Assembly: GCA_002189035.1 (NCBI GenBank)
Contig: NEEC01000007.1
Coordinates: 124,001-188,000, forward strand
Direction of reading: 5' to 3'
DNA from: Utricularia gibba
Taxonomy: Eukaryota > Streptophyta > Magnoliopsida > Lamiales > Lentibulariaceae
DNA length: 64,000 nt
Notes under the pieces: model-generated
Seen by the model: only the letters and a program-made list of their open reading frames with translations
Database searches by the model: none
Told to the model about the DNA's origin: nothing
Part shown: positions 108-46,253 of the stretch, in pieces
Position numbering within the stretch: the stretch's first letter is position 1
How the letters are laid out: each line of letters begins with the position of its first letter
Program-made: the position numbers and the translations under genes

Positions 108-3100
108 ATGGCACTTTTGCCTGTGGGGTTAGTTTTGTTTCTGGGTTCTTGTTGTTTCCTGTCCTCGAATGCCCAGAATTTAGAGAACCCAGAGCGCCAA
201 ACCCTGCTATCTTTCAAGAAATCCCTTCAAAACCCTGAAATTTTGCCGTGGGATGTTGGGATTTCTCATTGTAACTGGACTGGGGTTTCCTGCAATGGCG
301 AAGGCAGAGTAACTTCGCTAGTTCTTTCGGCTACCGCTCTGAATAATGGGCCGCTCATCGGGCGTATTTCATCTGCCGTGTTCTCTCTCAGTGCCCTCGT
401 TGTCTTGGATCTCTCGTCGAATCAGTTCTATGGGGAGTTTTCACCGGAGATTGCTTCGCTTACGAGACTGATGGTCTTAGACGTGGGTTATAACGGCTTG
501 ACGGGGGAGCTGCCGCGGCAACTTGGTGAGTTGACGAGTTTAACGACACTTCGACTCGGACCGAATATGTTCACGGGTAATATTCCGCCGGAACTGGGGA
601 ATCTGGTAAAGCTTGAATCTTTTGATGCATCCGGAAATTCTCTCACTGGATACATTCCGCCCCATCTGGGGAATTTGACTCAGCTGCAGGTTTTGGCTCT
701 TGGAAACAATTTTCTTACGGGCTCTTTGCCGGGAAACCTCTTCGCAAACCTGCAGTTTCTGTCTTCGTTTGATGTTTCAAACAACTCACTTTCCGGGCAA
801 CTACCGCCGGAGATCGGGAAACTTGGTTCATTGAAAGTTCTTTACCTTGGTGACAACCATTTCTCCGGCATGTTGCCACCGGAGACTGGGGAGCTTTCGA
901 GTCTTGAGATTTTCTCTGCTCCGTCTTGTCTATTTACAGGTCATTTGCCTGATACATTCTCTAACCTAAAAGCCTTAAGCAAGCTTGATCTTTCCTATAA
1001 TCCGTTACAGTGCCCGATTCCAAAGGCTGTTGGTGATATGAGTAATTTGACAGTGCTGAATCTTGTTTATTCTGAGCTTAATGGTACGATACCACCGGAG
1101 ATTGGCAAATGCAGAAACTTGAGAGCTCTCATGCTTTCATTCAATTCTCTTTCTGGAGGTTTACCTGAGGAGTTATCACAGTTACCATTGATGACTTTTG
1201 CGGCTGAAAAGAACCTTCTTTCAGGCCCATTGCCTCCTTGGCTTGGAAAGTGGTCACAAGTTGATTCTATATTGCTTTCAAGCAATAGATTCTCTGGAAA
1301 AATCCCACCTGACATTGGAAATTGTTCAATGCTAAGTCACATTAGTTTGAGCAGTAATTTCCTTACTGGTGAGATTCCTGCTGAACTCTGTAATGCTGTT
1401 TCGCTTTCAGAGCTAGAACTTGACCACAACTTCCTCGGCGGTAGTATTGAGGGGACATTTGTTAACTGTGGAAATTTAACACAGTTAGTGCTAATGGGAA
1501 ATCTTATCGTCGGTTCTATTCCGGATTATCTATCGGAGCTCCCACTGAATCTTCTTGTGCTTGATTCAAACAACTTCACGGGCAATATACCTCTGGGTAT
1601 TTGGGGTTCGCAGAGTTTGATTGAATTTTCAGCTTCGAATAACCAGTTAGAGGGCTCTCTCCTGCTGAAATTGGCAATGCCATCTCGTTTGAGATGATCG
1701 TTCTTTCCGACAATAAGCTCACTGGGCCGATCCCTCGGCAAATTGGACTACTTGCTTCTCTTTCCTTCTTGAATCTCAACTCCAATTTTCTTGAAGGAAA
1801 TATACCGTTAGAACTTGGGAACTGTAGTCGGCTGTCTACCCTGGACTTGGGCAACAATAGGCTTGATGGCTCCATTCCCGAAGAAATAGCTTTGTTGCCA
1901 CAGCTACAATGCCTCATTCTCTCGAAGAACAATTTTTCTGGAAATATCCCTTCCAACGCTTCCATGTATTTCAGACAAGTTCAGAATGTTCCTTATTCAT
2001 CCTATATTCAGCATCATGGATTGTATGATCTGTCATACAACAGGTTGAGTGGCTCAATTCCTGAAGAATTATCGAGGTGTGGAGTCATTGTTGATCTACT
2101 TCTCAATAACAACTTGCTATCTGGTGAAATTCCACCTTCTCTGTCCCGCATATCAAATCTTTCGACTTTGGACTTGTCTGGCAACTTGCTTACCGGTTCC
2201 ATTCCAAGTGAGTTAGGTGACTGCGTGAAGTTGCAGGGGTTATATCTAGGGGATAATCGGCTCACGGGTTTAATTCCTGAGAATCTCAGTAAACTGAATG
2301 CACTGGTGAAACTTAACTTGTCTTCAAATATGTTGTCTGGTCCAGTTCCTCGCACTCTCAGAGGATTAAATGGTCTTACTCATCTGGACTTGAGCTCCAA
2401 CTCACTCAGTGGTGAGCTACCTGCATCCTTGTCCGAACTTTCCAATCTTGTTGGGCTTTACTTGCAGCAGAACAAATTTTCTGGTGGCATAACTGGCCTT
2501 TTCAAGAACACTGTAGTTTGGAAAGTTGAGTTTGTGAACCTCAGCAGCAATACATTGACTGGTAGCCTTCCAAAATCCTTGGGCAATGCCTCGTATCTGG
2601 CGATCTTGGATCTCCACGGTAACAGGTTTTCTGGTGGTATTCCAGTTGACATCGGCAAACTTGCACAGTTGCAGTATCTTGATATCTCTGAAAACTGGCT
2701 CACAGGAGAAATCCCTGGTGATGTATGTGGCATTCCCAATCTGGGGTACTTGAACCTCGCTGATAATAACCTTGCCGGCTCGGTTCCAGCAACTGGCGTC
2801 TGCCGGAATCTCAGCAAGTCTACCATAGCAGGGAACAAAGGTCTGTGTGGTGGAATTCTCGGTTTGCAGTGCCGCTTTGTCCAGAAATCTTCATCTCTGA
2901 ATGCTTGGGCGGTTGCTTCTATTGTTCTGGGAACCATCTTGACTGCAATTTCTGCTATCATTATCCTCAAAATCTGGGCTAACAGAGGGAGGCCTGATCA
3001 AGAAGACAGTGGAGAAAGCAGTAAACTCAACAGCTCGGATGATCCAAATCTCTATTTCCTGAGCAGCAGCCGGTCGAAGGAGCCATTGAGCATCAACATT

Positions 3101-4015
3101 GCTATGTTTGAACAGCCCCTACTTAAGCTCACTCTGGTTGATATCCTGGAAGCCACGAACAACTTCTCCAAGGGGAATATAATTGGAGATGGAGGGTTCG
3201 GAACTGTTTACAAGGCTACGTTGCCAGATGGTAAAATTGTTGCTGTGAAGAAGCTGAGCCAGGCCAAGACTCAGGGGCAGCGCGAGTTTCTTGCAGAAAT
3301 GGAAACCGTTGGAAAAGTAAAGCACCGGAATCTCGTCCCATTACTCGGCTACTGCTCCTACGACGAGGAGAAAGTGCTGGTTTACGAGTACATGTCAAAC
3401 GGAAGCTTGGATCAATGGCTGCGGAACCGGACCGGAAAACCCAGAGTTCTCGATTGGTGTAAGCGTTTCAAAATCGCGGTTGGGGCTGCCCGTGGGCTCG
3501 CATTCTTACACCATGGCTTCATTCCCCATATCATCCACCGTGATATCAAGGCCAGCAACATTCTGCTGAACGAGGACTTCGAAGCAAAGGTTGCTGATTT
3601 TGGGCTGGCAAGGCTGATCAGTGCCTGCGAGACTCACGTCAGCACAGACATCGCCGGAACATTCGGGTATATTCCACCGGAGTACGGGCAGAGCTGGAAG
3701 TCCACCACGAGGGGAGACGTGTATAGCTTCGGTGTGATCCTGCTGGAGCTGTTAACCGGGAAAGAGCCCACCGGCCCTGAATTCAAGGATATTGAAGGTG
3801 GTAATCTGGTAGGTTGGGTGTTTCAGAAGATCAAGAGTGGGGCGTCCGTTGACGTGCTCGACCCTACGGTTCTTGATGCCGATTCTAAGCAGGCGATGCT
3901 CCTGACGCTGCAGATAGCGGTGTTCTGCCTGTCGGAAAACCCTTCCACCAGGCCCACCATGCTTCATGTACTCAAGTTCCTAACGGGGATCAAAGACGAC
4001 GACGACGACGACTGA
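108..4015 (+). CDS. EMS1: EMS1/MSP1-like leucine-rich repeat receptor kinase (reading frame interrupted once)
   Basis: Single-exon receptor kinase of about 1302 aa if one base is restored near 1660. The start is ATG 108, followed by a hydrophobic signal peptide ending near SSNAQ; the open frame extends upstream but only from a TTG. An N-terminal cap with CNWTGVSC is followed by roughly 30 LRRs of the LxxLxLxxNxLxGxIP type. Next come a membrane segment (about 2905-2975, AVASIVLGTILTAIS) and a Ser/Thr kinase with GDGGFGTVYKA, catalytic HRDIKASN, DFGLARL and GTFGYIPPEY. EMS1/MSP1 family members sense the TPD1 peptide and set tapetum fate in anthers; that role is inferred from family. The upstream frame stops at 1697 and the kinase half continues in another frame from about 1661. 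Both halves are well conserved, so a missing C is likelier than a true break. The family is usually intronless, which argues against an intron. A run of Asp codons ends the protein. Confidence 0.9.
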
Positions 4016-7306: not shown

Positions 7307-7872
7307 AAATTGAGTTACTGTAAGTGGGTTAAGGGGAAAACAGGGGATCAGCAGCAGGACAATAAACTTAATCCAACAGAAACAGCGCCGGAGAAGAAGA
7401 TTGGGGGTGTATGTAGTCGGTAGGATAAAGTAGCGAGAGAACGAGAGAGAGAAGAACAACCCCAACGGTCACAAATTAAGACATGGAAATAGCCTAAACA
7501 TGAGCGGATGTGAGTTGGCAGTTGGCACATTGCACCCTGTCCCACTGAATTATTGCCACTTTTAAAACAATTCTATTAAAAAAATCAGATATTTTTTTTC
7601 AGAAGCAGAAGCGCAACCACGCTACCGTTCCGTGGACCTCCTTTTTCTCTCTCTAGTCTTTTCTTATCATCTCTCTCAAGTGCTTCACTATAATTTGGAA
7701 TTTTTTAATATTCTAATTTGAATCGTTCGCCCCAACCCTAATTTTGCTTCTTCATTTGGAATGCAATAGCTTCAATGCTCCTTCGAAGTCGAAAGCCCTT
7801 CCTCCGCTGACAGTCGAACGGCGGCAGCCTCTTTTCCCAAACAGGTGTGACGTTGTGAAGGCATACTGCGTG
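7307..7872. promoter_or_regulatory. Bidirectional promoter region remorin/zinc-knuckle gene
   Basis: Head-to-head interval of about 570 bp between the remorin start and the zinc-knuckle start. It must contain both 5' leaders and promoters. AT-rich stretches lie around 7560-7600 and 7690-7720. I could not assign specific sites. Confidence 0.5.
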
Positions 7873-9204
7873 ATGGTGAGTCAGCGGCAGAGGCTGGCCA
7901 AGAAACGCTATAGAGAAGCACATCCGGATCTTTTTCCGGCCCCGGATCCCACGATGCCGAAGGATCCGAGGAAAAAGAAAAAGAGCATGTTCAAGCGTAA
8001 GAGCTCAGAGGAGAAGGGTGCTTCACTCAATTCTAAGAAAGGCTTGCGGAAAAAGCACCCTCTTCGTGTCGCCGGAATGAAGCCTGGTGAGAGCTGCTAT
8101 ATATGCAAGGCCCCGATCATATTGCCAAGAATTGTCCCAAGAAATCAGAATGGGAGAAGAATAAGGTAAGTTTAAAAGCAATGGAGTTTAGTAGTGTTTT
8201 GGATCATTTAGAAAATGCTTGTTACACCATGTTCAAATGAGCAGAGCCAATGAGAGTATGTAGCAGGACCGTGCGGGCGATTTATGGTTGTTTTACTGGC
8301 TTGTTGCAGGGTTTCTTGGTTCTATCTAATGGTTACTCTCGTTCTTTAGGCTTAGCGGGATTCCTGTTTTTCTGAAATGGAGAATCTGGGACTGATGATG
8401 CTCTATATGTCTACATGTCCTTAGCTTTTCTATGCCAACAGATCTGTTTATCTTGTCGCCGGCGCGGTCACAGCCTAAAGAACTGCCCGGAAAAATTCGA
8501 GACGACGGAGAAGAAATTGTGTTACAATTGTGGGGAAGCAGGGCATTCCCTATTTAATTGCCCTCAGCCTCCTCAGGATGGTAAAGCCATTATTTCTTGA
8601 ATGCCTGTGCTGCTGTGTAACTGCTCCGATGATCTGATAGGCGATCTCCTCTGGTCGACCAGGTGGAACAAGATTTGCCAAGTGCTTCATCTGCAGTCAA
8701 TCTGGGCACTTGAGTAAAGATTGCCCCAAGAGCACTCATGGAATTTACCCCAAGGTAACTTGATGAGCATGTATGTGCCCGTCCAACGCTGTATCCTATC
8801 TGACTGTCGTCCGTACCACATCCTTCGCTCTCTGAGAATATTCTACAGGGTGGTTGCTGTAAAATCTGCGGTGGCGTAACACATCTGGCCAAAGACTGTC
8901 CAAAAAAGAGCAGCAGATCCTCTGATGCTGCTGCCACGAACTCCCAATCCTGTAAGAGAATGATTTTATTGTATAGGGTTGTGGCCTTTGTCAAGATGAA
9001 CCATCTGGTGGATAATTCTCGCTTGCCTCTTTACCAGTTGAATCGGTAATGCAACCGAATAAGATTACCCGGTTCTCCAGCGGGGATGACCTCGAAGATG
9101 ACTTCACCCCTATTGCACCCATTCTCAACCCTCAAGATGCGAACCCAAAAGCAACTGGGAACAAGAAGAACTATGGAACCAAAGTCGTCAACTTTACTGG
9201 TTAA
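7873..9204 (+). CDS. CCHC zinc-knuckle nucleic-acid-binding protein (ZCCHC9-like), one frame slip
   Basis: Five exons: 7873-8165, 8442-8580, 8663-8754, 8849-8951, 9038-9204; about 264 aa. The N-terminus is highly basic (KDPRKKKKSMFKRK), suggesting nuclear or nucleolar location. Then come five CX2CX4HX4C knuckles: CYICKAPDHIAKNC (needs one extra base), CLSCRRRGHSLKNC, CYNCGEAGHSLFNC, CFICSQSGHLSKDC and CKICGGVTHLAKDC. The C-terminus is acidic then basic and ends NYGTKVVNFTG. Proteins of this type are thought to bind RNA, possibly in ribosome biogenesis; that is family inference. In exon 1 the first knuckle is out of frame because the run CCCC at 8111-8114 is one base short; the shifted frame then runs cleanly to the donor. 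The start at 7873 is the first in-frame ATG. Confidence 0.85.
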
Positions 9205-9823: not shown

Positions 9824-9864
<41 letters not shown>

Positions 9865-14103: not shown

Positions 14104-14897
14104 TTAGAAGTCGCCGTCCTCTACACGCTCCGCCGCCTCGTCGGCGACATGATCCTCCAGCGCATCAAAACCCTCCGCCAGCGCTACTCCCCCACAACCC
14201 CTGCCACCGCACCGATGGCCAATCCAGTACCCATGCCTCCAAATCCGCTCTTCTTCTCCCCCTGGTACACCGGCTGCTGTCCACCGTAGCTGTCGTAGCC
14301 GCCCTGACCGTAGCTCGCAGCCGGAGCGCCGTAAGCCGGCGGAGGAGCTCCGTACTCAGGCCGAGCATCGTACTGAATCCCGTAGGCCGGTCGCGAATAA
14401 TCGGATTGCCAATCCCTGGTTCCCGATTGGGCGACCCCATACGGCTGCGGCTGCGGCGGCGGCGGATAGTAGGAACCCGATGAGCTATACCGCAAATCGC
14501 GTACGGATACTCCGATGTTGAGCTTGCCGTGAGGGCGGCCGGAAGGGCGCTTGAGATCGAGCTCCTTGTCGCGGCGGTTGCCTAATCCGACGTCGTTTAC
14601 AACGTCATGGAGAGGGATCTTGGCGGATCCGATAAGAGGCTTGGTTCCTTCCCCGGGCCTGGCGTTGACGATGTCGATGTGGAGAGTGGAGTCTTCGATG
14701 GGAGAGCTGAAGGGGATGATGAGTTTCTGGTCCCAGAACGGCGCCGTATCTCCCTCCTCATCGACGCGCGTAGTGACCTTGTTCGCGGGATCTACCCACA
14801 CGACGGCGTAGGGCTTCAGGCCGCCGTGGAACCAGTTGATATTTTTCAAATGCTTGGCGGAGATTATGGTGACCTCGAGCTCGTATCGCGACGCCAT
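14104..14897 (-). CDS. SRC2: SRC2-like C2-domain protein, one frame slip near the C-terminus
   Basis: Single exon, about 264 aa after one-base correction. An N-terminal C2 domain ([48 protein letters not shown]) is followed by a Pro/Gly/Tyr-rich linker ([20 protein letters not shown]). A glycine-rich hydrophobic segment starts [12 protein letters not shown], and an acidic tail ends VEDGDF. The predicted frame stops early at 14184 because the G run (+ strand CCCCC, 14189-14193) is one base short; the next frame supplies the expected VALAEG...[14 protein letters not shown] tail down to 14104. SRC2 proteins are cold-induced, traffic from ER to vacuole, and bind RBOHF in Arabidopsis; these roles are inferred. 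The start is the ATG of [11 protein letters not shown]-box lies about 430 bp upstream. Confidence 0.88.
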
Positions 14898-19734: not shown

Positions 19735-22209
19735 ATGGGTGCAAAATCCCTGCACTTCCTCTGCTTCTTCTTCTCCTTTCTGATGCACTCACGCGCTTTC
19801 ACTCCCCAAGATAATCACTTGGTCAACTGCGGTTCAAAGTTTCCCACCGTAGCCGTGGGTAATCGTCTCTTTGTCGGAGACTCATCGGACGGTGGGTCAT
19901 CTTATATTTCACTAGGTGAAGGAGGATTTGCTCTAGAAAACCCAAACCCATCTTCGTCCTCCTCATCGATTTACGGAACTGCGAGAGTTTTCACTTCAGC
20001 TGCAAAATATTCGTTTGAAATCAAGGATCTTGGCACCCATTTGGTACGTCTACATTTCTCTCCTTTTGCTTCTGGGACCTACGATCTCAAGAATGGGAAT
20101 TTTGGGGTTTTGGCAAATGGGGCTTCTATTCTCAGAGGTTATTCTGCTAATTCAACCGTCATCAAAGAGTTCTTTCTGATGGTAGACAGAGATAAGCTTG
20201 AGATTCTGTTCACGCCTGTTGATCATTCCAGCTTTGCGTATGTTAACGCAATTGAAGTATTTTCTGCTCCAAAAGGTTTTTTCGTTGATGCTGGGGAGAT
20301 AGCACTTCTTAATCCTGATGGGCCTCAGCGATTCACGCAGAATCTCTCCACCCAAGTACTGGAAACTTTACATAGAATCAATGTTGGTGGTCCTGTGGTA
20401 ACACCTTTCAATGATACCCTATGGAGAACATGGATACCTGATGAAGATTTCCTTTTCCTGAAATCAGCTGCTAAGGTAGCTCGAACAACTCATCCTCCGA
20501 ATTACCAGTCCGGCGGCGCCACAAGAGAAAATGCCCCTGATGCAGTATACATGACTGCTCAGCAAATGAATATAGTGAACCACAGTTCATCCTTTCTGTT
20601 TAACATAACATGGGAGTTTCCGGTGAGTTCTGAGGACTCTGTCTACCTGGTGCGGTTGCATTTCTGTGATATCGTAAGCATTGCGCTGCATACACTGTAC
20701 TTCGACGTGTATATCAACGAGGTCACCGCTTACAAAGATCTGGACTTGTCTGTTCTGACATTTCATCAACTTGCATCTCCTTATTACATTGATTTTGCGG
20801 TGAGTAATCCGAAGGATTATGGTGCTGTAAGAGTAAGCATCGGTCCTGCTGACTTGAGCACTACCTCGAGAAAGAACGCTATCCTGAATGGCCTGGAGAT
20901 CATGAGAATGGTGAATTTTAATCTTGCACCTGCACCTGCACCGGTTGTTTCTGGGAGGAGAAGCATTTGGATTTATGCAGGGCCAGTCCTGGCGGGATTC
21001 ATACTTGTAACTCTTGCGATTCTTGCAACATATTTTGCCATGATTTTCAAGTTCAGAAGAAGACTATCCGAGAGCTCATGCTTCACTTCAGTGCGCAAAA
21101 CTGAAGGAAGCTCTCATGCCACGTTATCAGAAGCCACAGTTCTGGCTTCTCTTGGTCCTTACGGACACTATGGATTGAAAATCCCCTTTGTCGATATTCA
21201 GTTAGCTACGAACAACTTTGATAGCAGCCTGATAATTGGATCAGGAGGCTTCGGCACAGTGTACAGAGGAACACTCAAAGATACCATCAAGGTTGCAGTG
21301 AAAAGAGGAGTTCCTGGTTCAAGGCAAGGCCTCCCTGAGTTTCATACAGAAGTGATGGTTCTTTCCAAGATTCGGCATCGGCATCTTGTTTCCTTGGTGG
21401 GATACTGCGAGGAGCAGTCGGAGATGATTCTTGTTTACGAATACATGGAAAAGGGACCCTTGAGAAACCATCTGTATGGAAGTGACCTACCTTCCCTGTC
21501 ATGGAAGCAAAGGCTGGAAATCTGCATTGGAGCAGCAAGAGGGCTTCATTATCTCCACACGGGTTCTGCTCAGGGGATCATCCACAGAGACATCAAGTCT
21601 ACCAACATTCTTTTAGACGAAGACTATGTCGCGAAAGTCGCAGATTTCGGGCTGTCGAGATCCGGTCCTTGTGTAGATGAGTCACATGTGAGCACTGGCG
21701 TGAAGGGTAGTTTTGGGTACCTGGACCCTGAATACTTCCGGCTGCAGCAGCTGACCGATAAGTCTGATATTTACTCATTCGGGGTGGTGTTGTTCGAAGT
21801 CCTCTGTGCTAGACCGGCGGTTAATCCATCCCTTGTGGGCGAGCGAGCTAATCTGGCGGAATGTGCTGCTCAATGGCACAAGAAAGGGCTGATCGAGCAA
21901 ATGATGGATCCTCATCTTGCCGGCCAGATAGAACCAGCGTCGCTGAAGAAGTTCAGTGACACTGCGATCAAGTGCCTCGCCAACTACAGTGAGGATCGGC
22001 CCACAATGGGGGAGGTTCTGTGGAACTTGGAGCATGCTTACCAGCTTCAAATACAGGGGATAAGAAGAGATGCTAGAGATGGGGAAGATGATTCCATGGC
22101 ACCCGCCCCAGCGATTCTTCCAGCCAGCGACGAGGTAGGTGAAGATGCCATCTCCGATATTTCAAGGAGCGCAGTCTTCTCCCAGTTGCTGTCCCGCAAA
22201 GGCCGGTAG
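19735..22209 (+). CDS. CrRLK1L malectin-like receptor kinase (At5g24010-type)
   Basis: Intronless, 824 aa, the same length as Arabidopsis At5g24010. The chosen ATG (MGAKSLHFLCFFFSF) begins a clear signal peptide; 50 further upstream codons are open but look like leader. Ectodomain: two malectin-like halves with family blocks VNCGS, TARVF, LVRLHFSPF, INVGG, NDTLWRTW, GGATRENAPDAVY and LVRLHFCDI. After the membrane span (WIYAGPVLAGFILVTLAIL) comes a kinase with GSGGFGTVYRG, AVKRG, HRDIKSTNILL, DFGLSRSG and GSFGYLDPEYFR. It ends AVFSQLLSRKGR, as in At5g24010. CrRLK1L receptors bind RALF peptides and monitor wall state at the plasma membrane; the ligand here is unknown. The neighbour about 2 kb downstream is MinD, as in Arabidopsis. 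Confidence 0.95.
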   Translation: MGAKSLHFLCFFFSFLMHSRAFTPQDNHLVNCGSKFPTVAVGNRLFVGDSSDGGSSYISLGEGGFALENPNPSSSSSSIYGTARVFTSAAKYSFEIKDLGTHLVRLHFSPFASGTYDLKNGNFGVLANGASILRGYSANSTVIKEFFLMVDRDKLEILFTPVDHSSFAYVNAIEVFSAPKGFFVDAGEIALLNPDGPQRFTQNLSTQVLETLHRINVGGPVVTPFNDTLWRTWIPDEDFLFLKSAAKVARTTHPPNYQSGGATRENAPDAVYMTAQQMNIVNHSSSFLFNITWEFPVSSEDSVYLVRLHFCDIVSIALHTLYFDVYINEVTAYKDLDLSVLTFHQLASPYYIDFAVSNPKDYGAVRVSIGPADLSTTSRKNAILNGLEIMRMVNFNLAPAPAPVVSGRRSIWIYAGPVLAGFILVTLAILATYFAMIFKFRRRLSESSCFTSVRKTEGSSHATLSEATVLASLGPYGHYGLKIPFVDIQLATNNFDSSLIIGSGGFGTVYRGTLKDTIKVAVKRGVPGSRQGLPEFHTEVMVLSKIRHRHLVSLVGYCEEQSEMILVYEYMEKGPLRNHLYGSDLPSLSWKQRLEICIGAARGLHYLHTGSAQGIIHRDIKSTNILLDEDYVAKVADFGLSRSGPCVDESHVSTGVKGSFGYLDPEYFRLQQLTDKSDIYSFGVVLFEVLCARPAVNPSLVGERANLAECAAQWHKKGLIEQMMDPHLAGQIEPASLKKFSDTAIKCLANYSEDRPTMGEVLWNLEHAYQLQIQGIRRDARDGEDDSMAPAPAILPASDEVGEDAISDISRSAVFSQLLSRKGR

Positions 22210-23107: not shown

Positions 23108-24266
23108 TAAACCTGCCTACTCAAAACCGAAATCACGTCCTTTTTTTTTCCAATTCTTTTACCCCAGAAAACCTAGCACACTGTCTGCCACATCTAATGC
23201 TGTTTGTGTTTCTTTCCTATGAAATTCAATCAGTACATAGAAATGCAAATCTATAACTAACACGCTGACAACACCCAACTTAATGCTACACCCACTCAGG
23301 CCTGAAAGCGTAGCTCATCCTACGGACGCTGCATTCCCAAAAAGAAACACCGGGTGACAGGAGCAGTGAAAAATGACAATCAGATACCGATCCTTCTTCA
23401 ATCATTTTTCCAGATTTTCTCGCTCGAATTACTGTCACAAAGGTGAGCAAGAATTGTTGATCTTTCATAAAAACCAAAAGAAAAAAAGAACCAAAGAAAA
23501 AGACACATCTTTCGATTCCACAGATCCTCTGAAACAAAACGAAATAGATAGCAAAATGGTATCACAGATCACACGGTCGGAGATTCAAAAGATGAGCTAT
23601 ATTAATACAATCAATGCAACAGAACAAACATAATCTCAGACTTCCAGTTTCCGTACTCAGAGTTCATACAAGGTATCGATTTTCAATATAATCAGCATCC
23701 AATTCCTAAAGATCCACTCCAAGAGTCACAAATTTCGATCGACAGAAGAAGCATACAACCGTCGGCAGTTACAAACACAGTAATCGAAGCAAAACCTACC
23801 ACAGCTGAAGGCAACGAAGCCAGCCTCCTCGAAATCGAAAAATCACAAGATAATGAAACAGAAAGCGAATCGGCGAATCGGGATCTGCAGTCAGCGGATG
23901 CTGTGCGTGAGAGATGAGGAAACCAAAAATGGCGGGGACCACCACCGGTCGTTAAGACTTCAAGAAACGGAGCAGATGAATCAAGGGTAGGCTTGGAAAT
24001 TCGCATTCTCAATTGCGTGGTTTTCAATGAAACGTCTCTCTAGAGGACTTTTATAGTTAGGCCCTAGAAAGAATAATAAGAAAAAGAGGGGGTGGCTAAA
24101 GAGTATTTATAAATCCGAGGGTCGAAGTGAAATATATGGAAACTTTAGGATATCGTCTGTGTACAGTTCATACTGCCGATTGATTATCTTCGAATCACGA
24201 CGGGAAAAAAAAAGCGCATTGCGGCGGGGAGGTGGCTGATTCGCCGGCCCAGGCGTACGGGAAGCG
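23108..24266. other. 5' leader/intron of the coiled-coil gene and divergent MinD promoter
   Basis: This region probably holds the non-coding or alternatively coding first exon of the minus-strand gene (about 24030-23800), its leader intron (about 23799-23117), and a compact bidirectional promoter from about 24030 to 24266. No other feature is recognised. Confidence 0.45.
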
Positions 24267-25217
24267 ATGATTTCTTTTCACTGCATTTCGAAACCCTCGC
24301 CATTAGACTGGTTTCCGAGAAAATCTCTCGGAAAGCGTACGAAAGCTCCGTCTCCTATCCACTCTCTTCTCCAGTACAGCCGGAAGCCACAGCTGGCCGG
24401 AGAAACACCTCGAGTGGTAGTTATAACCTCTGGGAAGGGAGGCGTTGGGAAAACCACCACAACCGCGAACATTGGGCTCTCCATTGCCAGGTTAGGCTTC
24501 TCTGCAGTAGCCATTGACGCCGACGTAGGACTCCGCAACCTGGATCTTCTCCTAGGTCTTGAGAATCGCGTCAATTACACGGTTGTGGAAGTGTTGAATG
24601 GCGATTGCCGCCTCGACCAAGCCCTAGTTCGCGACAAACGCTGGTCGAACTTTGAGCTTCTCTGCATTTCCAAACCTCGATCAAAGCTCCCACTAGGGTT
24701 CGGTGGGAAAGCCCTAATTTGGTTGGTTGAAGCACTCAAGAACAGGGAAGAAGGCGCTCCTGACTTCATCCTCATTGACTGCCCCGCCGGAATCGACGCC
24801 GGCTTTATCACCGCCATTACCCCTGCGAATGAGGCCGTTCTCGTCACAACACCGGACATCACTAGCCTCCGCGACGCCGACAGAGTGACGGGGCTGCTGG
24901 AGTGTGATGGGATTAGGGATATAAAGATGATTGTGAATAGAGTTAGGACCGATATGATCAAAGGGGAAGATATGATGTCAGTTCTGGACGTGCAAGAGAT
25001 GCTTGGGCTGCCATTGTTGGGTATGATCCCTGAGGATTCAGAGGTTATCCGAAGCACGAATCGAGGACATCCGTTGGTTCTGAATAAGCCACCAGCTTTG
25101 GCCGGATTGGCATTCGAACAGGCCGCTTGGAGGTTGGTGGAACAGGACACTATGAAGGCGGTGATGGTGGAGGAAGAGCCAAAGAAAAGGGGCTTCTTTT
25201 CCTTCTTTGGTGGCTAG
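24267..25217 (+). CDS. MIND1: Chloroplast septum-site determining ATPase MinD
   Basis: Intronless, 316 aa. The first 50 residues are Ser/Lys/Pro-rich with few acids and act as a plastid transit peptide (MISFHCISKPSPLDWFPRKS). The mature part has the deviant Walker A GKGGVGKTTTTANIG, switch AIDADVGLRNLDLLLG, and Walker B FILIDCPAGID. It also has TTPDITSLRDADRVTGLL, VNRVRTDMIKGEDM and LGMIPEDSEVIRSTNRG. The C-terminal amphipathic helix that binds membrane is seen as KKRGFFSFFGG. MinD with MinE and ARC3 places the FtsZ ring at the middle of the chloroplast. Loss gives misplaced division and few, uneven plastids (Arabidopsis ARC11). All key residues are intact. The At5g24010-type kinase upstream matches the Arabidopsis neighbour. 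Confidence 0.97.
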   Translation: MISFHCISKPSPLDWFPRKSLGKRTKAPSPIHSLLQYSRKPQLAGETPRVVVITSGKGGVGKTTTTANIGLSIARLGFSAVAIDADVGLRNLDLLLGLENRVNYTVVEVLNGDCRLDQALVRDKRWSNFELLCISKPRSKLPLGFGGKALIWLVEALKNREEGAPDFILIDCPAGIDAGFITAITPANEAVLVTTPDITSLRDADRVTGLLECDGIRDIKMIVNRVRTDMIKGEDMMSVLDVQEMLGLPLLGMIPEDSEVIRSTNRGHPLVLNKPPALAGLAFEQAAWRLVEQDTMKAVMVEEEPKKRGFFSFFGG

Positions 25218-25545: not shown

Positions 25546-27248
25546 ATGGGGAGGCTGCAGCTGTTGGTTCTGGTGGTGGCGATTCTGTGTTGCCTGAACT
25601 TAGCAGCAGGATGCGGAGAGCCCACCCCCACTGAAGGCCAGCATTATTGGGCAATAAGTTGCCGTAAACATACTGCGTTCTTGCCAGATTTCGGAGGGAA
25701 GGGCGATGGTAAGACCTCAAACACGAATGCCTTCAAGGCGGCAATAGCTTATATTAGCAAGCTGGCCTCCGATGGTGGCGGTCAGCTCATCGTGCCCCCT
25801 GGAAAATGGGCTGACGGGGTCATTTCACTTGACGTCGCATTTCACACTTTTCTTACATCAGGGTGCTACTCTTCTTGCATCTCAGGTATAATAAATACAT
25901 AGAGTCCTGGCATGAAGCATTTGAACAAACCATTGACAGAGTTCTCCTGTAAATTTTTTAGGAAGAATCTGATTATCCTGTGGTGGATCCTCTACCGTCG
26001 TACGGAAGAGGAATCGATGTTCCTGGAAAACGATATGCTGCTCTCATCACCGGAACAAACCTCACAGACACTGTTGTAACAGGTGCAGAGCATTTCAAGC
26101 ATCCTTATCTTGTGTCTCAGTCGACTTTGTGGCCACTCATGTTATCTTACAATTCAAGGAAAAAATGGGACCATAGACGGGCAGGGGAAAATATGGTGGG
26201 ATAAGCTCAATGCTCGTAAGCTCAAATACAGTAGGCCAATGCTGATAGAGATCACGCATTCCAACATGATCCAAGTTTCTGACCTTACTCTGATCAACTC
26301 ACCGTCATGGAATGTGCATCCAGTTTACTGCAGGTAGGATCTATAGCCTCAGAAACTTGATCTCCACGAGTGTATAAATTCTTTTCTCACTCTAAAAGGG
26401 ACGTTATCGTCGAAAATCTGACGATTTTGGCTCCCACTCAAGCTCCGAACACAGATGGGATCAATCCAGGTTCACGTTAATTTGCCATTCATTGCATGCC
26501 AAGAAATGTTGGATTGTGATTTCTTGTTGTGCCGATAGATTCCTGCGAAAATGTGCGTATAAGGGGCTGCTACATAGAGTCCAGCGATGATTGCATTGCC
26601 ATAAAGAGCGGACGGGATCAAGTCGGGGTTAAAGCAGGGAGACCCTCTCAGCACATAAGTATCAGTAGAGTCCTCTGCCTTTCTCCTAGAGGTGCTGCCA
26701 TAGCTTTGGGAAGTGAGATGTCCGGAGGGATTGAAGATGTCCGAGCTGACGAGATCAAGGTCATCAACGCCGAATCCGGTGTCAGGTTGAAAACAGGGAA
26801 TTTGGGAGGAGGATGCACTAAAGACATCTATGTGAAGAACATGTTCCTGAGTAACTTGAAGTATGTCTTCTGGCTCACAGGAAACTACAGTTCCCATCCA
26901 AATGGCAGATATGGTCATCGCCCAGTCCCACGAGTTCAAAACATAAACTTCCTGGACTTCCTCGCTGAGAATGTGACGCTTGCTGGGAAGCTACAGGGAA
27001 TCCATGGTGATCCCTTTACGGGGATTTGTATTTCTGATACTTCTATTAGGATGGGCTTGGATTCCTCAGGGAAGAGGATGAAAATTCCATGGAAATGCAC
27101 GGATATTTCGGGGACCAGTAGCCGTGTGTTCCCCAAAGCTTGCCATCTCCTGGTGGAAAAGACGGCCCAGTGCAATTTCCCTCGAGATGTGTTATCTATT
27201 GACAGAGTTGAGCTGAAGAGCTGTTCTGCTGCATTGAAGCCCTGGTAG
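25546..27248 (+). CDS. GH28 polygalacturonase-like protein, one frame slip
   Basis: Five exons: 25546-25885, 25962-26082, 26159-26333, 26399-26469, 26539-27248; about 471 aa. It begins with a secretion signal (MGRLQLLVLVVAILCCLNLAAG), then FGGKGDGKTSNTNAF and the beta-helix. GH28 motifs: NTDG is present; the second motif is SSDDC, which supplies the paired catalytic Asp; RLKTG is in the RIK place. The GHG histidine is absent and the region reads AIALGSEMSGGI, as in a plant clade whose catalytic activity is unclear. Exon 1 becomes out of frame after PPGKW because GGG at 25808-25810 is one base too long; the other frame gives the expected WLTGSFHLTSHFTLFL. All other joins are in phase. The likely role is pectin modification in the cell wall. 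Confidence 0.87.
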
Positions 27249-27377: not shown

Positions 27378-30263
27378 TCACTCATCAGAATCTGAACCTG
27401 AACCTGAAGACTCGGACTTGCTCCCTTTCTTAACTTTCTTCACATTTGACGTTTCACCATCTGCCTCATCTTCACTATATTCGCTTTCAATTTCCTCTTC
27501 CTCCTCCTCTTCCTCCGCCTCCTCATCAGCGGCATCATCCCCATCCCCGCCCCCTTCACCCTGAGCAGCAGCCGCACCTCTTGTGCCGGCCCGTGTTCGT
27601 TTCCCGACTTTAAGCTTAATGCTTACTTTCTCATCGCACCCAATCCAAGAGTCACACATCACGTAGCAAGTTAGGTTGTAGTTACCTTCAGCCGAAGCCA
27701 AGAACTTCCCCAACACGAGGCGAGCCCCACTCTTAACTCTCTCAACTGCATTCTTGACAGCTGAGCTTTTTTCCTTTGGACTCGAACCTATAACTTCCAT
27801 TCTTTCCTCAACTGCAATCGAAGCTGCGGTCACTGCTGCTGCTTCGTCCATAAAAGAAACCATCTGGGAGAACCACACGGCATTCGATGACTGGTCAGCA
27901 AGTAGGAGCCAGAATGTTTCTTCCTTGTGATAAGGGTAATGCGGGGCATGGGGCAAAGCACCAATCAAGCCATTTGGACGCTTCAAAGTGATCCATGCTT
28001 CAATTGTCACAAGGTCACCCTCCTGTATGCCTTCTTCGCCTTCTGTCCCACAGGTAACTTCAATTGATAATGAAGGGATCATTTCAATTGCCTTCTCCAC
28101 ATCCGCCATCTCAAGGGGGGTTAAATCCGCAGCTTCTGAGAGTAACTGGGAGCGTTCTTCGATCGGCATTTCCTTGACCTCCTGAAAACTACGTACCTTC
28201 TGCAATGAGGAAATCAGACCTAAGAGGTGCTAACAATAATCCTCCCATTGTTCACCGCGATACTTTTATGGAGTCCATAAGAAGAGGTATTGATACCTTT
28301 CGGGTTATTTTCTTGATTGTTTGATCACTAAAGTGAGGAAGCTGCAAAAAAGGAGCAGTCCCTCTGTTTTCCTAGCACTCAGAGGGATAGCCTGGAAATT
28401 CATAGAAAAAGATATGTGCTTTCAGCAAAGCCTGAGAGGCCGGAATCCATGTTTCAAGAGTAAATCTTTATGTCGCTTATCTTCAAACCAATACCTGAAC
28501 AATGCACTGCGAAAGTTCAATGACTCCAATTGCAGGCCTAAGCCAGCCATGCCCCTTTGAACTACGAGGAACTATTGCCATCTGCAGATACATATAAATT
28601 TACTCAAGAAAGCTAGAAGCGTCAATCACACCCAAAATTAAAAAAAAAAACAATAAAAACGGAAACCTTCAAAAGCTCTTCAAGAAGACGAGGTACAAGT
28701 TCTAGCACACGTTTACAGTCACGTTCCAAGTCCGCAGTTAAAGAGGCAGTTTCACGGATCAAGTGAGCTTGAATCAGAAGTTCTGTCTATGTAATCAAAG
28801 TATAAAACAAGGACACAAATAAAAACCATGTTGGATGGTACGAAAACCTAATCTAAAGCAATTTACCTTAACAAGGGCCGGATGCTGCTTCCAAAACTTT
28901 GCCTGTTCCTTTTTTATATTTTTCAGGTCTAGGTTTAACTCACTTCGCACGGTCATGAACAGTTTCTGAAGGGGTTCATCATCAGATCTCCTAACCGGAA
29001 TCTCCATGAATTCAGCTGCTCTTACCAAGACTTCTATAACTTTACTGCATAGCATAACAGGACGGTTCCAAATTTTAACTACATTTTTCTAAATTTACAA
29101 CGCAAGTCAAAAAATAAAAACTCAAATAGAAGAAATACCTGGGTGCCAAGGAAGGTTTCATGGAGTGAAAATAAGCACCGAGTGTATCATTCTTGACGAA
29201 ATTCCCACTATACTTCGAAGATCTTGCCAGGTATACAACAGCAGCCAACAAGGGTAACAATATGAACACACCAACGATGCACATTAACAGTATTCCGCTT
29301 GAGGAACCATCGATATCCAGAAGAAACTGTGGAAGTGCGATTCCCATTTGAAAACCCTGACAACATGAAGGTCACAACGTAAGACACGCTCCTCTAGCTA
29401 AACACTACAACTCCTAGGTTTGCACACCCAAACATAAGCTTGCATTCTAAATCTTACCTGTCTACCATCTGGATGACCGTACTTCTCATAATTTTCACGA
29501 GAAACTGGATCAGTCAGCGCTTGGTACGCCTTGGATATATATTCCACAAAATACTTATGAGCAGCTGTACAAAGTGAAAAAATAAGGGAAAAAGTCTAAT
29601 GAACGAAAAGGGAGAGAGCATGTCGACTTCCCAATTCAAATCAGATGACAATAATGGAAAATAGCAGTAAGCTAAAAGTAACCTGGATCAGGATTTTTAT
29701 CAGGATGATACTGTACAGAGAGTCTGCGATATGCCTTCTTAACATCTGAGTCTGATGCCCCGGCATCCAATCCAAGGATACTGAATGGCTCGAAGACTTG
29801 ATTCTGAGTAGGCAGAGAAGCTTTAGAAGTAATGATAGATGAAGAAAACACATCTTATGAATCTTCCCACATGTCCCTACATCCAAATGATTTAAAATCG
29901 CAGCATACCTCACGACTTATTGTCTTAATGTAGTATACAAGAATTCCCATCAAGACCCATAGAAGCATCAATGTGAAGTTACCCAATGTTGAAACGTTTG
30001 CAATCTGAAAGATTAACAGAAATGATAGTAGAGTTGCATAGCTTCAGTCGATGTAGGTATCTGAAAGATCAACCAACCCCTTTTAATACTGATTTTCCAT
30101 ATTTCCCTGATCTCATACAATGAGCACATTGGCAGTGGATGCTCTTAGTCTTCTTTGAAGCGGCACGGAATAGTTTCAGGATGGTATAGGGAACCAATGG
30201 CAAGGCGATCATCGACAAGATGAAAATCGGAAACAATGCTTTATTTTCTTCTGAATCTGCCAT
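27378..30263 (-). CDS. ERDJ2: ERdj2 (Sec63-type J-domain ER translocon protein), one frame slip
   Basis: Ten exons: 30263-30078, 30004-29909, 29803-29683, 29564-29458, 29356-29139, 29044-28867, 28786-28667, 28581-28495, 28391-28297, 28199-27378; about 676 aa, near the 687 of Arabidopsis ERDJ2A. Order: two N-terminal membrane spans ([33 protein letters not shown]), a lumenal J-domain with YHPDKNPDP, a third span ([20 protein letters not shown]), then Sec63 domains and an acidic tail ([17 protein letters not shown], ending SGSDSDE). Sec63 partners with Sec61/62 and recruits BiP for protein translocation into the ER; loss of ERDJ2A is lethal in pollen. In exon 9 the frame is lost after SARKTEG: the run CCC at 28360-28362 (+ strand) is one base short, and the next frame gives the expected [11 protein letters not shown]. 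All other splice phases agree. Confidence 0.92.
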
Positions 30264-31255: not shown

Positions 31256-31278
31256 AGAGGAGAGGAGAGGAGAGGAGC
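31256..31278. repeat. GAGAG/GGAGA short tandem repeat
   Basis: Several copies of a five-base GAGAG unit in tandem upstream of the MAKR gene. Approximate borders. Confidence 0.7.
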
Positions 31279-33492: not shown

Positions 33493-33524
<32 letters not shown>

Positions 33525-33704: not shown

Positions 33705-34844
33705 ATGGCGGATCAGGAAGCGGACCAGGTGAAGAGCGAATCTGCGCTTGAATCTCTACTCGACAACGTCACGGACAAGTTCCGTGGTCATGATTCCTCC
33801 CCGTCTCTCTCTGTCGATGATCGCGGGTTCAAGGAGTCCGCCAAGTCCAAGATCTACCGCCTTTTCGGTCGGGAAAGGCCCGTGCACAAGGTTTTAGGCG
33901 GGGGAAAGGTAGTTTTTCGGGGGCGATTTTTCGATTTCTTGTTCTGGTGTCAACGTCTTCTTACTGTTTCTATTTCTTTTTTTCCTTTCTGATTCGCTGG
34001 TTGCGTCTTTTCTGTTTAAACTGAGGAGTCTTGTTGTTCCTTTGTTTTTTTTTACAGCTGCGGATATCTTCCTATGGAAGGATAAAAAGGTCACGGCAAG
34101 TGTGTTGGGGTTGGTCACCGCAATTTGGGTTCTCTTCGAAGTTGTTGAATATCACTTGCTTACACTACTGTGCCACATTCTGATTCTCGTTATGTCACTC
34201 CTCTTCTTGTGGTCTAACGCATCCAAAGTCTTCAAGAGGTAAGCGACTTCATGACCTGAAGGCTTCCAATTTTCGGAAATTTTAGACTTATTTTGTCCAT
34301 AATAATTCTCAGGTCCCCGCCTAAGATCCCTGAAATAGTTATTCGTGAAGATATTACTCGGGACGTTGCTTCAGCCATTCGAACAGAACTCAACGCTGCC
34401 TTGGCTGAACTTCGAGCCATAGCATCTGGAAAAGATCTAAAGAAACTCCTTGCAGTATGTCCATTAATTCCCGCATTTCCACGAGTCTCGTATCTTCATC
34501 ACGATGCAGTAATTTCACAAAAACATTTAGGTGTTAGCCGGCCTCTGGGTTCTCTCTGTCGTGGGCGCCTGCCTTAACTTCCTGACACTGTTCTACGTGT
34601 GTAAGTAACCTGTCCTTGCATCCCAAATGCTTTCATCTAGACCCATTCCACTCATTCAGTGAAAACCCCTGCTTGCCATGTTTCTCTAGGCTTTGTGCTT
34701 CTGCACACGGTGCCCGTGGTGTATGACAAGTACGAAGACCAAGTGGACGCGTTCGCTGAGAAGGCTGAAGCTGAACTCAAGAAACAATACGCCAATGTTC
34801 TGAGTAAAATCCCCAAAGGCCCTCTCAAAGATAAGTTTCACTAA
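33705..34844 (+). CDS. Reticulon-like protein B (RTNLB), probable frame slip at exon 1 end
   Basis: Five exons: 33705-33908, 34058-34238, 34313-34454, 34531-34600, 34690-34844; about 250 aa. An acidic N-terminus ([20 protein letters not shown]) leads to [18 protein letters not shown], the standard entry to the reticulon domain. Two hydrophobic hairpins follow ([20 protein letters not shown] with [33 protein letters not shown] with [20 protein letters not shown]). The tail is basic, ending KDKFH. Reticulons bend tubular ER membranes. Exon 2 starts with two bases of a split codon, but exon 1 as written ends in phase 0. One more G in the GGGGG run at 33900-33904 would give GGGKAADIFLW and repair it. 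The other introns join exactly. Confidence 0.88.
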
Positions 34845-39452: not shown

Positions 39453-42400
39453 ATGGCGCAAGTATGTTCGAATCTTGCCAAGTGTGCATTTCCTGCTGGA
39501 GTTGGTTCTGGATCTCAGGAAAGCCGATCAAGGGAGCAGGGGAAACTTTCAGGGTTCGATGGGAATGTATTGCGGTCAAATGAGAGGATGAGCCGCGGTG
39601 TAGCTGTAAAGGTAAGCGCTCCGATCACGCCTAGGAAGTCCCTTAGTACGGATCCGCAGTTCATCCCCGTTTCTCCTGAAGACAGTGCAAAGGTAAGTGC
39701 TTTGTTTTGTTTTCTTTTTTTTTTTTTTTGGCTCTTTCTCATGCGTATTCTTGCAATACGCCACATTTGTAAGCCGACACTTTAATGTGGCGTTTCCATA
39801 TTCTTACTTCTGGGTCAGGAACAGGGAAAAGTTCAGAGTTTTCAAGGAACTACACAAAATGGTGATGTATCCATGGGTTTGGGATCTACACCATTAGTGA
39901 GGCGGAAGACCAAAATTGTTTGCACAATCGGTCCGTCTTCCAATACCAAGGAGATGATATGGAAACTAGCAGAGGCAGGGATGAATGTGGCGCGTCTTAA
40001 TATGTCCCACGGAGATCATGCATCTCATCAGAAAGTTATTGACTTGGTCAAGGAGTACAACTCTAAGGCGAAGGACAATGTTATAGCCATCATGCTTGAC
40101 ACCAAGGCTAGTATTTTAGTTTAGCTCGTGGTTCACAACTTAATTAGACTGCAGCGCCATTCAGCTCTTCGGGATTTCGAATGGCAGGGCCCTGAGGTTA
40201 GGAGCGGTGATTTACCTCAACCTATTATGCTGTCGACGGGTCAAGAATTTACTTTCACAATTAGAAGGGGAATTGGAACACCTGACTGTGTTAGTGTCAA
40301 CTATGACGATTTTGTCAATGATGTTGAAGCTGGGGATATGCTGCTTGTCGATGGTAGAAACCTCTAACTTTCTGATATTTGTTTGTTTAGAGAAAAAAAA
40401 ACATTAGCCCGTATAATATTGGAAAACTTAGCTTCCTACATTAGTTGGTTGTCGCGATTGGCACCCTAGTATTTTTTCTTTTTCTGGATTTTGATCTGCA
40501 GCTTTTTAGATTTCATGCCCTTGATGATACTGGCCTCTGCTTTTGAATCTATATATGACTGTTTCTTGACTATGCAGGTGGTATGATGTCATTGCTCGTG
40601 AAGTCGAAGAATGAAGATTCAGTGAAATGTGAAGTTATTGATGGTGGGGAGCTTAAGTCTCGTCGACACCTTAATGTTCGTGGAAAAAGTGCAACACTTC
40701 CTTCAATCACAGGTCACGCTTTCTGTGCATCAGGATTTTCTGTTTGTAGTAACTGCATTGCTCTCCCTGTGCACAAAAAATAAGAACCGGCATTTGAATG
40801 TTCAACAGAAAAGGATTGGGAGGATATCAAATTTGGAGTGGATAATGAAGTTGATTTCTATGCTGTTTCCTTTGTCAAGGATGCTGCTGTTGTTCATGAA
40901 TTGAAGAATTATCTGAAAGGTTAATTCCTAGTTTTTGGAGCCGTATTTTGTGCTGTTAACTACTCCCTCAAGCATTGGCCCTTCTCCTCTGTTGTGGCTG
41001 CAGCAGCCACTATTGTTTTTCCATATCATGAATTTCGATATCGTTTTTTGTTCCCTGCAGCTGCTGGAGCAGATATCCACGTCATCGTCAAAATTGAAAG
41101 TGCAGACTCCATACCAAATTTGCAGTCAATTATAACTGCGTCTGATGGGGTAGGAATGGCAATCGCACATGTAGATAAATAATGATAATTTCATGTACTC
41201 AGAATGAGCTTATCAAGCTGGCTTTCTCGAAATTATTAGTGAATTATTTGCGATTGACTGTACATGGTTGGCAATGAAGCGTTTAGAAATCTGATAATTT
41301 CTTTTATAGTTTCTATGTGTTCCATGATTGGTGAAACTTGCTGCACTGCAAAATAAATTACCTGAACTGATCCGTTTTCTTGATAGGCAATGGTTGCCAG
41401 AGGAGATCTTGGTGCAGAATTGCCCATCGAGGACGTTCCAATATTGCAGGTAAAGTGGCAGACTACAGATCCGGGACACAAGAAAGAGCATGGTTGATTC
41501 AAGTTATTCTATGAACGGTTGTGTTGATTTAAGAAATACCTGATGTGTATAGGAAGAAATTATCCGGACATGTCGTAGCATGGGGAAAGCAGTTATTGTA
41601 GCAACAAATATGCTTGAAAGCATGATAGTGCACCCCACTCCCACCCGAGCAGAAGTATCAGATATTGCCATTGCTGTTCGAGAAGGTGCTGATGCAGTGA
41701 TGCTTTCAGGAGAGACTGCTCATGGGAGGCAAGTGATTTTATTTTTTAAAGAAAGCAACTGATGCTTCGTGCAGCTGAGTATTTTCACTAACCTAGGTGC
41801 ATTAAACTTTGCATGATTCCTATAATTTGACTTGCTGTCTTAGGTTTCCATTGAAAGCTGTTAAAGTCATGCACACGGTCTCCTTGCGAACTGAAGAAAC
41901 GATCTCCGGTCCAGAGACGCCAACGAACCCTGGCCTAGCACTCAAGGTTCAGTTCTGTAGCAGATTCTGCTGTCTTGTTTGTACTTCCACTTCGCATGTA
42001 CCACACTCACATCTCTGTTTGTTGTTAATTTTGTGTTTGCAGAATCATATGAGTGAAATGTTTGCATACCATGCAACAATGATGTCCAATACCCTTGGAA
42101 CCTCAATCGTAGTATTCACGAGGACTGGTTTCATGGCCATACTCTTGAGCCATTATCGACCATCTGGAACAATTTTTGCTTTCACAAATGAGTGAGTTCC
42201 AAAACCTTCGTGTTACAAGATATCTGTCTGGCTGCACCTCCCCTTGGTGCCCTTTTCTTTTTAACACATGTATATACTGATCACTGCATTCGCATGTCCT
42301 CACTTCCAACTTTCTTCTCAACTATAGCCAGCCTAGCTAATTGTACGACATGTATTGTTTGTTCTCTTAACAGTAAGAGAATACAGCAAAGGTTGGCTCT

Positions 42401-42712
42401 CTACCAAGGTGTTTGCCCCATTCATTTGGAGTTCTCCAATGATGCAGAAGAGACTTTCTCCAACGCACTCGCCTTGCTCCAGGTGCGTGCTTCTTAAACA
42501 CTAGAGCGCACAAGATCATCACTTTCGTGCCACCCGTTTGCTTTTTTTTGCTTATTCTGAGTACAGTATTCAAGGTATGAATACCAAATATGACCTGTTT
42601 ACAGAAGCAAGGCATGGTTAAAGAAGGTGAGCACGTGGCTCTTCTCCAGAGTGGCCGGCAACCGATCTGGCGATCGCAGTCGACCCACAACATTCAGGTC
42701 AGGAAAGTATAG
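39453..42712 (+). CDS. PKP2: Plastidial pyruvate kinase beta subunit (PKP2/PKp-beta1)
   Basis: Twelve exons: 39453-39692, 39819-40106, 40188-40353, 40578-40712, 40809-40919, 41061-41149, 41387-41449, 41553-41728, 41844-41946, 42043-42191, 42374-42482, 42605-42712; 578 aa (Arabidopsis 579). A Ser/Arg-rich transit peptide ([16 protein letters not shown]) is followed by the catalytic barrel: [104 protein letters not shown] and MLSGETAHG. The C-terminal domain ends [14 protein letters not shown]. The enzyme turns phosphoenolpyruvate and ADP into pyruvate and ATP in plastids and feeds seed oil synthesis, acting with alpha subunits. Introns after exon 2 (AAG/GCTAGT) and exon 8 (AG/GCAAGT) need GC donors. 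All phases join, with no frame break. Confidence 0.96.
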
Positions 42713-43217
42713 CCAGCCTCAAACGAGCATGGCTGCCGTGGTGGATCCAATGCCTCATCCCTTGCTTATTTACGATTCTAGATATTGTTCTCTCCATCTG
42801 GAGGGAGATACTGCGGTTTTTTTTTTTTTTTTGTTTTTGAATCCATCAGCTCCTGCACTGCTTTTTTCGCCTTGTCTTGCTGAATGTTTCCTTGTGACTT
42901 GGGTGAGGGCTTGCTTGCTTGCTTCTTCGTAGTGAGATTTTTTTCAGGTGCATTTATTTTAGATCAATAAAATAAAAATAAATGGGATGTAAAATAAGAA
43001 GCGTTTTCTTAAAGTCGTTGGCAGGTTTTCCGAGTTCATGGAGTAGCGACTTACACAAGATTCAATACGACGACGTACAGCGTCCTATCTCCTCTCTCTG
43101 CTTGCATGGATGATGCCGCCCCGGAGCTTTCAGCAACACTCCTTGCAGCTCCTCCACCTCGCGATTCCTTCTCCAAAAAAGTAATCAGGCGAAGGTTTAC
43201 ACAATCGAGAGGAGAGG
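42713..43217. other. Intergenic PKP2 3' UTR/DUF3143 promoter
   Basis: About 500 bp with a T-run near 42816-42830 and AT-rich sequence near 42960-43000. No gene seen. Confidence 0.45.
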
Positions 43218-44102: not shown

Positions 44103-45268
44103 AGAAGCCCCACTTCGGGAAGCAATAAGCTGCTGCAAAGAGTCACCGAGATCAGCTTCGTGCATCAGAAATTCGATTCTTGTAGGATGACTACGATTTG
44201 ATGGCATCTATCAGATATTCACGAGGAAAAATAACACCTTAGCCAAGTCTCAATGGAATCGTTTGCGCGTGGCGCACAAATGCTGTCATCCTCTTGGATT
44301 TTATGCTCCTACTTTCGTGTCCAGTGAAGATGGTGACGACGGAGGAGCTGGACCCCCTCCTCTTGGGGTGGACAATGGTGTTAAGGGAAAGCGTGGATCC
44401 GAGCGCGCAGGCCTGCCCAGGTGAGGAGTAATCCAGCCCACTGCTCAGACTACCCAGCTCCAGAATAAAGTAAAGACTGCAGCAGCATTACATGTATCTA
44501 TCTATCTAGCAGCGTATGAGGATGGATGAATGATTGATCACCTAATCCGAATCGCGCCTTCTCAGGCACAACCTAACCTAGCAATCCTTGCTCCTGCGCC
44601 CATCAACTTTTTGGGAGTCGTGAACTTCTGGGCGCGCATCTCAACGACCAGATCTAGTTGCTCAGATTTTATGGAAACAGCCAAGCTCAGGCATGCCATG
44701 CCATGCCGGGTGCAGTTTGGAATATTTTTTTTGGTGCCCCCCAGTCCCCACTCCCCCATGTAAAGCAAGAAAAGGTCCCTCCCCCCTACAGCATCTTATT
44801 CCTTGTAGGGGGCAACTCACTCACTCACCCCTCCCCTTCCTCTCAAATTCCCTCCTTTTCAGCAGGTCAACAACACACACACACTCCAGTCTGCTGCACC
44901 TGAGCTTGAAAGCATTCCCAGCATAATACTAACCACCATCCCATAATTGATGGGGTAGAAGCATCCAATGCATGACTGACTACTCCAGTCCTGGTGGACA
45001 AAATCATGCATATTCCAAATGCCCTTCAAATAATTCAATTATTGCACCTTCCTTCCACTTTAATATTCTAATCCTGAACTGATTGATTAGATCGATGGTT
45101 GTTGGTGTAGTGATCAGCTTCTGGAAATAGAATTAATGTCGCAAAAATGATCGAGGGGAGGGGAGGGGAGGGAGGGGGACCAGCGGGGGCGACAAGGAGA
45201 ACAATAATGATAGAGGGAGAGGGAGAGGGAGAGGGAGAGGGAGAAAAGTGGATTCAAATGGAAGATCC
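44103..45268. other. Intergenic DUF3143/CRF 3' regions
   Basis: About 1.2 kb between convergent genes. It contains ATGCC repeats near 44692, a G-rich block (45152-45178) and a GAGAGG array (45210-45246) next to the CRF stop. No supported gene. Confidence 0.5.
45152..45246. repeat. Purine-rich low-complexity block (GGGGA and GAGAGG repeats)
   Basis: The first part has four runs of three or more G separated by single A residues, a G-quadruplex-type pattern. The second part is a tandem GGAGAG array. It sits just beyond the CRF stop codon, in its probable 3' UTR, where the mRNA would be pyrimidine-rich. Confidence 0.75.
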
Positions 45269-46253
45269 TCAAACGGCTAAGAACGACTCCAGACTCCCCA
45301 AATTGGAAACTTCGCGGAAATCATCATCCACCTGGAGCCATCTGCTCCTCTCCTCCACTGAGTCTTTTGCATCACCCACTGCCGCCGCGCCCGTCTCCCC
45401 AAACTCCGCCGCCTCCAGGGAATTCCGAAGCAGTAACTCCCAGCAGTAGAATTCGGACACGGATTCCACTGGGAAATCGAAAATCGGAACTTCCTCCGGG
45501 GTGTACTCCTGGGGCGCCCTCTCCCCATCTTCCGGTTCCCATTGGTTCCCTGGAGTCGGAGGAATTTTTCTCCGTATCGTGGGCTCTTCCTCCACCGGAA
45601 ACTCGAAGAAATGGCTGCTCACTGTGTAACCGGCGACCCCGGGCTCGCTGTCCAGATCGCTCGAGTATCGGAACACGGAGGTTGGGGATGAGAAGTTGCG
45701 AGACTCGCCCGCGGAATCGTAGCTGGATTCCCAAGTGTCCTTCGCCGGCGTTTTCTTGAAATTGGTCAAAGCGCCAGGGCCACGCAGCTTAATGGCAGCG
45801 TTGTCGTACACCATCGCCGCCTCCTCCGCGGTGTCGTATGTCCCCAGCCACAGCCTGACTCGCTGCGAGGGATCCCGTATCTCCGCCGCCCATTTCCCCA
45901 GGGCCGCTGCCGTACACCCCGGAACTTCGACCGGTTCCTCCTCTTGCCCGCCATTTCCTCTGCCTTCACCTTCATCGGCTTCGACTTGAGACCCAAGGGG
46001 ACTCCACCACGCGTCTGGCCACAGTCGGAGGATGCCGACTCGATTCTGATCTCGTTGACATATTTCTTGATCCTCGGCCGGAACTCGGAGTCCTCATCCC
46101 CGGACGAATCCGTCGCGTCGGGATCATCGACACAAAATCTAACGGTCACGGCGGCGTTACCGATTCCCCCCCATTCTCCGCGGTGCGGCTTCAAACCTCC
46201 CTCGGAGAACGAGCCCTCTTTGAATCTCCCCGGGGCAGCAACGTCGTACCCAT
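45269..46253 (-). CDS. CRF: Cytokinin response factor (AP2/ERF), two frame slips
   Basis: Single exon, about 328 aa if two bases are restored. The order is the CRF domain ([31 protein letters not shown]), then the AP2/ERF domain ([12 protein letters not shown], then in another frame [33 protein letters not shown]). A Ser/Pro/acidic C-terminus follows, with the CRF motif [11 protein letters not shown] and FYCWELL. The AP2 domain breaks where the T run at 45893-45895 (+ strand) is one base short. The N-terminal frame carrying the CRF domain has no ATG before a stop; the plausible start MGTTLLP at 46253 is in a different frame and would join through the C4G4 run at 46228-46235. CRFs are nuclear activators downstream of cytokinin and auxin. 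The 5' leader contains CAG-like repeats. Both breaks are in homopolymers. Confidence 0.85.

Follow-up and report, generated by a model that had tools for sequence, protein, structure and literature searches.

Single-base frame breaks in conserved genes of Utricularia gibba as probable consensus errors of a long-read assembly

Several genes on one contig of the Utricularia gibba assembly appear to be dead, each losing its reading frame to the gain or loss of a single base in an otherwise well-preserved sequence. This raised the question of whether the breaks are mutations of the plant or mistakes in the assembled sequence. The window, the whole stretch of DNA analysed here, comprises 64,000 nt of contig NEEC01000007.1 (G000:C213:124001-188000), and the assembly to which it belongs (G000) consists of 516 contigs and 100,091,633 bases. 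A review lists this assembly as HGAP at 88x coverage, with the number of contigs printed as 581 (PMC5793159), and we infer PacBio continuous long reads as the platform. The analysis described below makes it very probable that the breaks arose in the consensus of an assembly built from PacBio reads only, and are not mutations of the plant.

Frame breaks in the window

Frame breaks were checked by three-frame reading, by their exact positions and, at most sites, by comparison with paralogues of the same genome. The first-pass annotation had described eight single-base breaks in seven otherwise conserved genes, seven of them one base short and one, in a GH28 gene, one base long. All eight were confirmed through paralogues, a motif or splice phase, with the directions as described. 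The EMS1 LRR receptor kinase gene (about 108-4012, plus strand) is one base short at positions 1661-1662, where the homeolog on contig C412 (75% identity) has one base more. The coding alignment of the two up to the stop region contained no second frame-breaking gap. The run at this break is only CC, within the CT-rich stretch CTCTCTCC, and the homopolymer label is weak there. The zinc-knuckle gene (about 7717-8760, plus strand) is one base short at a C4 run, 8111-8114, and three-frame reading shows its CX2CX4HX4C motif straddling the break in two frames. When read through, the sequence matches PF00098 (E 3e-14), a match in which the stretches counted may be later knuckles. A paralogue of this gene was looked for in the same genome and none was found.

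The SRC2 C2-domain gene on the minus strand is one base short at 14189-14193, a G5 run (C5 on the plus strand), and its paralogue on contig C244 passes the site in one frame, continuing ALGGLALAEGFD. The GH28 polygalacturonase gene (about 25546-27248, plus strand) is one base long at a G3 run, 25808-25810, where all three paralogues, on C3, C451 and C2, stay in frame. The CRF (AP2/ERF) gene, also on the minus strand, is broken twice. Within the AP2 domain it is one base short at 45896-45899, and this site had been taken for a T run, wrongly. It is a run of G4 (C4 on the plus strand), reading TGGGG in the window and TGGGGG, with one G more, in four of four paralogues (L061-L064). Reading through the break improves the AP2 match from E 1e-8 to 2e-16. 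The second break lies at 46228-46235, at a C4G4 junction in the N-terminus, which fits the paralogue on C1 in frame and length only if one base is missing.

The two remaining breaks are backed less firmly than the other six. The ERDJ2/Sec63 gene (about 27378-30260, minus strand) would be one base short at a G3 run, 28360-28362 (C3 on the plus strand), as judged from its paralogue on C409, which is intact through the site. The evidence is only moderate here because the break falls in a segment of variable length. In the RTNLB reticulon gene on the plus strand, the break at the end of exon 1 (a G5 run, 33900-33904, one base short) is seen only as a mismatch in splice phase. The window donor is in phase 0, and both paralogues, on C1 and C244, have a phase-1 donor, AAAAC|GT. 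The missing base could be either G or A, and the read-through matches PF02453 along its full length. It is therefore conceivable that some of the eight are not lesions, and reflect instead an unseen intron, an alternative donor or length variation. The dependence of RTNLB on splice phase and the position of the ERDJ2 site would fit such a misreading, as would two apparent splits in GRAS genes elsewhere (C4:1155.5k and C1:1229.5k), which proved to be introns and were rejected as breaks. Against it, the paralogues of EMS1, SRC2, GH28 and CRF read straight through and the zinc knuckle is cut inside its own motif, and we consider misread structure unlikely even for some of the sites.

A candidate ninth break at 40,783 was rejected as an intron difference. 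The pyruvate kinase gene (window 39786-42500) has an apparent GC-AG intron after LDTK; its homeolog (L039) is on C508. Two genes in the window served as intact controls, each a single open reading frame on the plus strand: a FERONIA-like CrRLK1L gene (19735-22209) and a MinD-like gene (24240-25217).

Constraint and decay

If the seven genes had been dead for long, they would be expected to carry multiple mixed lesions and to show relaxed constraint. We observed neither. The description of their flanks as conserved and free of other decay holds, with one lesion per gene and two in CRF. The dN/dS ratio of EMS1 against its C412 homeolog is 0.13 upstream of the break and 0.09 downstream, that of SRC2 is 0.17 and that of CRF 0.10; for ERDJ2 and GH28 the synonymous sites were saturated in the comparison. 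Where measurable, values of 0.09-0.17 argue against old pseudogenes, and not against very recent ones, which leave no trace in such ratios.

True decay is present nearby, and the contrast that the first-pass annotation drew between it and the artefact stands. A BOBBER-like NudC remnant (52749-52906 on the minus strand, at about 52.8 kb) and what is left of an ATX-like SET exon (47168-47254 on the plus strand, at about 47.2 kb) both show differences of mixed length from C508, and the BOBBER pieces on C508 are intact. With such decay at hand, in a lineage noted for losing genes and with paralogues present for most of the genes checked, so that loss would be tolerable, the seven genes could be young pseudogenes that arose after whole-genome duplication, each hit once by replication slippage. 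The single one-base lesions, the lack of further decay and the low dN/dS of EMS1 before and after its break speak against this, as do the breaks found elsewhere in the assembly.

Recurrence across the assembly

Breaks elsewhere in the genome were counted through gene-family searches and short stretches taken at the split points. In the GRAS and HSP70 searches, genes were found cut into adjacent pieces in differing frames, and a frameshift-aware aligner was used to compare seven CrRLK1L loci with the intact gene of the window. This gave 22 further breaks in unrelated genes, some of them strongly constrained (13 in GRAS, two in HSP70 and three in CrRLK1L genes, two in a CCT gene present on C244 and on C251, with one each in an SRC2 and an HSF paralogue, both on C244). 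The HSP70 breaks are at C451:3343.8k and C496:433.4k. Among the CrRLK1L loci, the one on C411 has two one-base deficits, that on C451 has one and the others have none. Because these breaks were found through gene splitting, the sample favours clear cases.

All eight window sites are one-base indels and, from their letters, compatible with C/G. The outside breaks are uniformly one base short at C/G (22/22), and the extra base of GH28 goes in a direction absent from all of them. C/G makes up 47% of coding runs of at least two bases, and the chance of 22/22 at C/G would be about 8e-8, a figure that is only roughly true as it assumes independent breaks and an unselected sample. The broken runs are short, at 1-6 bases, with a few of the outside breaks at runs of one or two. 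The earlier label of homopolymer sites stands for one-base changes at short runs, and is weak for the CC of EMS1.

The density of these breaks is also similar in and outside the window. The GRAS genes contain 13 breaks in 42.9 kb, or 3.0e-4 per coding base (95% 1.6-5.2e-4), the CrRLK1L genes three in 16.6 kb (1.8e-4) and the HSP70 genes two in 9.9 kb. The window, with eight breaks in an estimated 28 kb of coding sequence (about 2.9e-4), is ordinary; the effect extends over the genome and is not confined to the window. At least one such break is present in 11 of 37 sampled GRAS genes after removal of the two intron cases; C414:3444.9k, C416 and a few loci in several pieces were set aside. Five GRAS paralogues, on C244, C375, C142, C2 and C1, are broken in or beside the same Gly-Gly-Pro-Pro (GGPP) codons, which form a natural C/G run.

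For young pseudogenes, this would require the same lesion to have struck HSP70 genes, and to have hit identical codons in five GRAS paralogues, with every one of the 22 outside breaks at C/G. Together with the two copies of a CCT locus that are broken differently (see below), these observations leave the loss of function of the window genes very improbable. A genome-wide pattern could also be real in another way, if the sequenced clonal line had a defect in mismatch repair and the one-base contractions were true. Deletions of one base at runs throughout the genome would look alike under such a defect. Slippage in repair-deficient cells climbs steeply with run length and affects long A/T runs worst. 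Here the runs span 1-6 bases and the coding breaks leave A/T runs untouched, and survival would be difficult for a plant that had lost the frame of about three in ten GRAS genes. We therefore give a repair defect hardly any weight, and hold it just as improbable that single C/G bases have truly been lost from short runs genome-wide, so that many genes of the sequenced clone would be out of frame.

Under consensus error, the caller would under-count short C/G runs by one base and rarely over-count them. Such miscounting would act across the assembly and strike about 3 in every 10,000 coding bases, and long conserved genes would often be split in the assembly and intact in the plant. The raw reads would then be expected to carry the longer runs.

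Redundant contigs provide a view of the same locus rendered twice. The assembly includes redundant or haplotype contigs: three small ones, C251, C151 and C377 (29, 34 and 20 kb), are near-identical to parts of C244, C142 and C321, respectively. C251 duplicates part of C244 (3.4 Mb), and in a CCT gene that they share, the C244 copy has one C missing near the start and the C251 copy one C missing further on. Each is intact at the break of the other, and the window copy is intact at both. Over 23,150 aligned bases of the three pairs we counted 39 one-base indels and 12 substitutions outside messy clusters. True allelic variation is expected mostly as substitutions. The pairs read as independent renderings of the same DNA that disagree, and true haplotypes may account for some of the differences. 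The indels fall at C/G in 23 of 39 cases (C/G being 37% of runs) and at A/T in 16, a weaker C/G bias than in the coding breaks. We used these data for the spectrum only and not as an error rate for C213, as polishing may be poorer where a stretch is duplicated. Separately, contigs C1, C2, C409 and C505 measure 8,500,000, 6,192,500, 2,492,500 and 3,452,500 bases, exact multiples of 2,500 that free assembly would not yield.

Implications for gene loss in U. gibba

The breaks very probably belong to a known type of artefact and are not a feature of the plant. Errors of long reads are mainly short homopolymer indels that fragment genes (Kastor, PMC12007338; citing Watson and Warr 2019). As in the Kastor case, most of the changes seen here are one-base deletions at short homopolymers, which fragment conserved genes and mimic pseudogenes. 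Unlike that nanopore assembly, where most deletions were at A/T runs (PMC12007338), every coding break here fits C/G, and the reads appear to be from PacBio. The original proposal of homopolymer error in uncorrected long reads, and not gene death, is supported as to the artefact by recurrence at the same density across the genome, by the HSP70 genes and by the CCT copies. Its word 'uncorrected' is better replaced by 'self-corrected PacBio-only', because the review lists HGAP at 88x (PMC5793159). The genes look dead, yet the breaks have the look of an ordinary artefact, because the same mistake recurs assembly-wide, HSP70 genes included.

We also considered DCL3 as a victim of such a break and dropped it. 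The locus at C213:2762k lacks a match to the dimer domain, which fits the published truncation, and that truncation was verified by 5' RACE (PMC8333044). The breaks in the assembly do not put it in doubt. The Dicer-like locus at C213:2761967-2762970 matches RNase III twice and Dicer_dimer not at all, and probably represents the DCL3 whose truncation was reported in PMC8333044. Further DCL loci lie on three contigs, C255, C244 and C3, and the dimer match on C3 contains stops.

The eight breaks are uninformative on the biology of the plant, and serve as a warning against calling such genes dead. The assembly appears to be the reference for a plant that serves as a model of how genomes shrink and lose genes. 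With about three in ten sampled GRAS genes broken in this way, gene-loss counts, claims of truncated proteins and gene models that derive from it therefore need to be checked against the reads.
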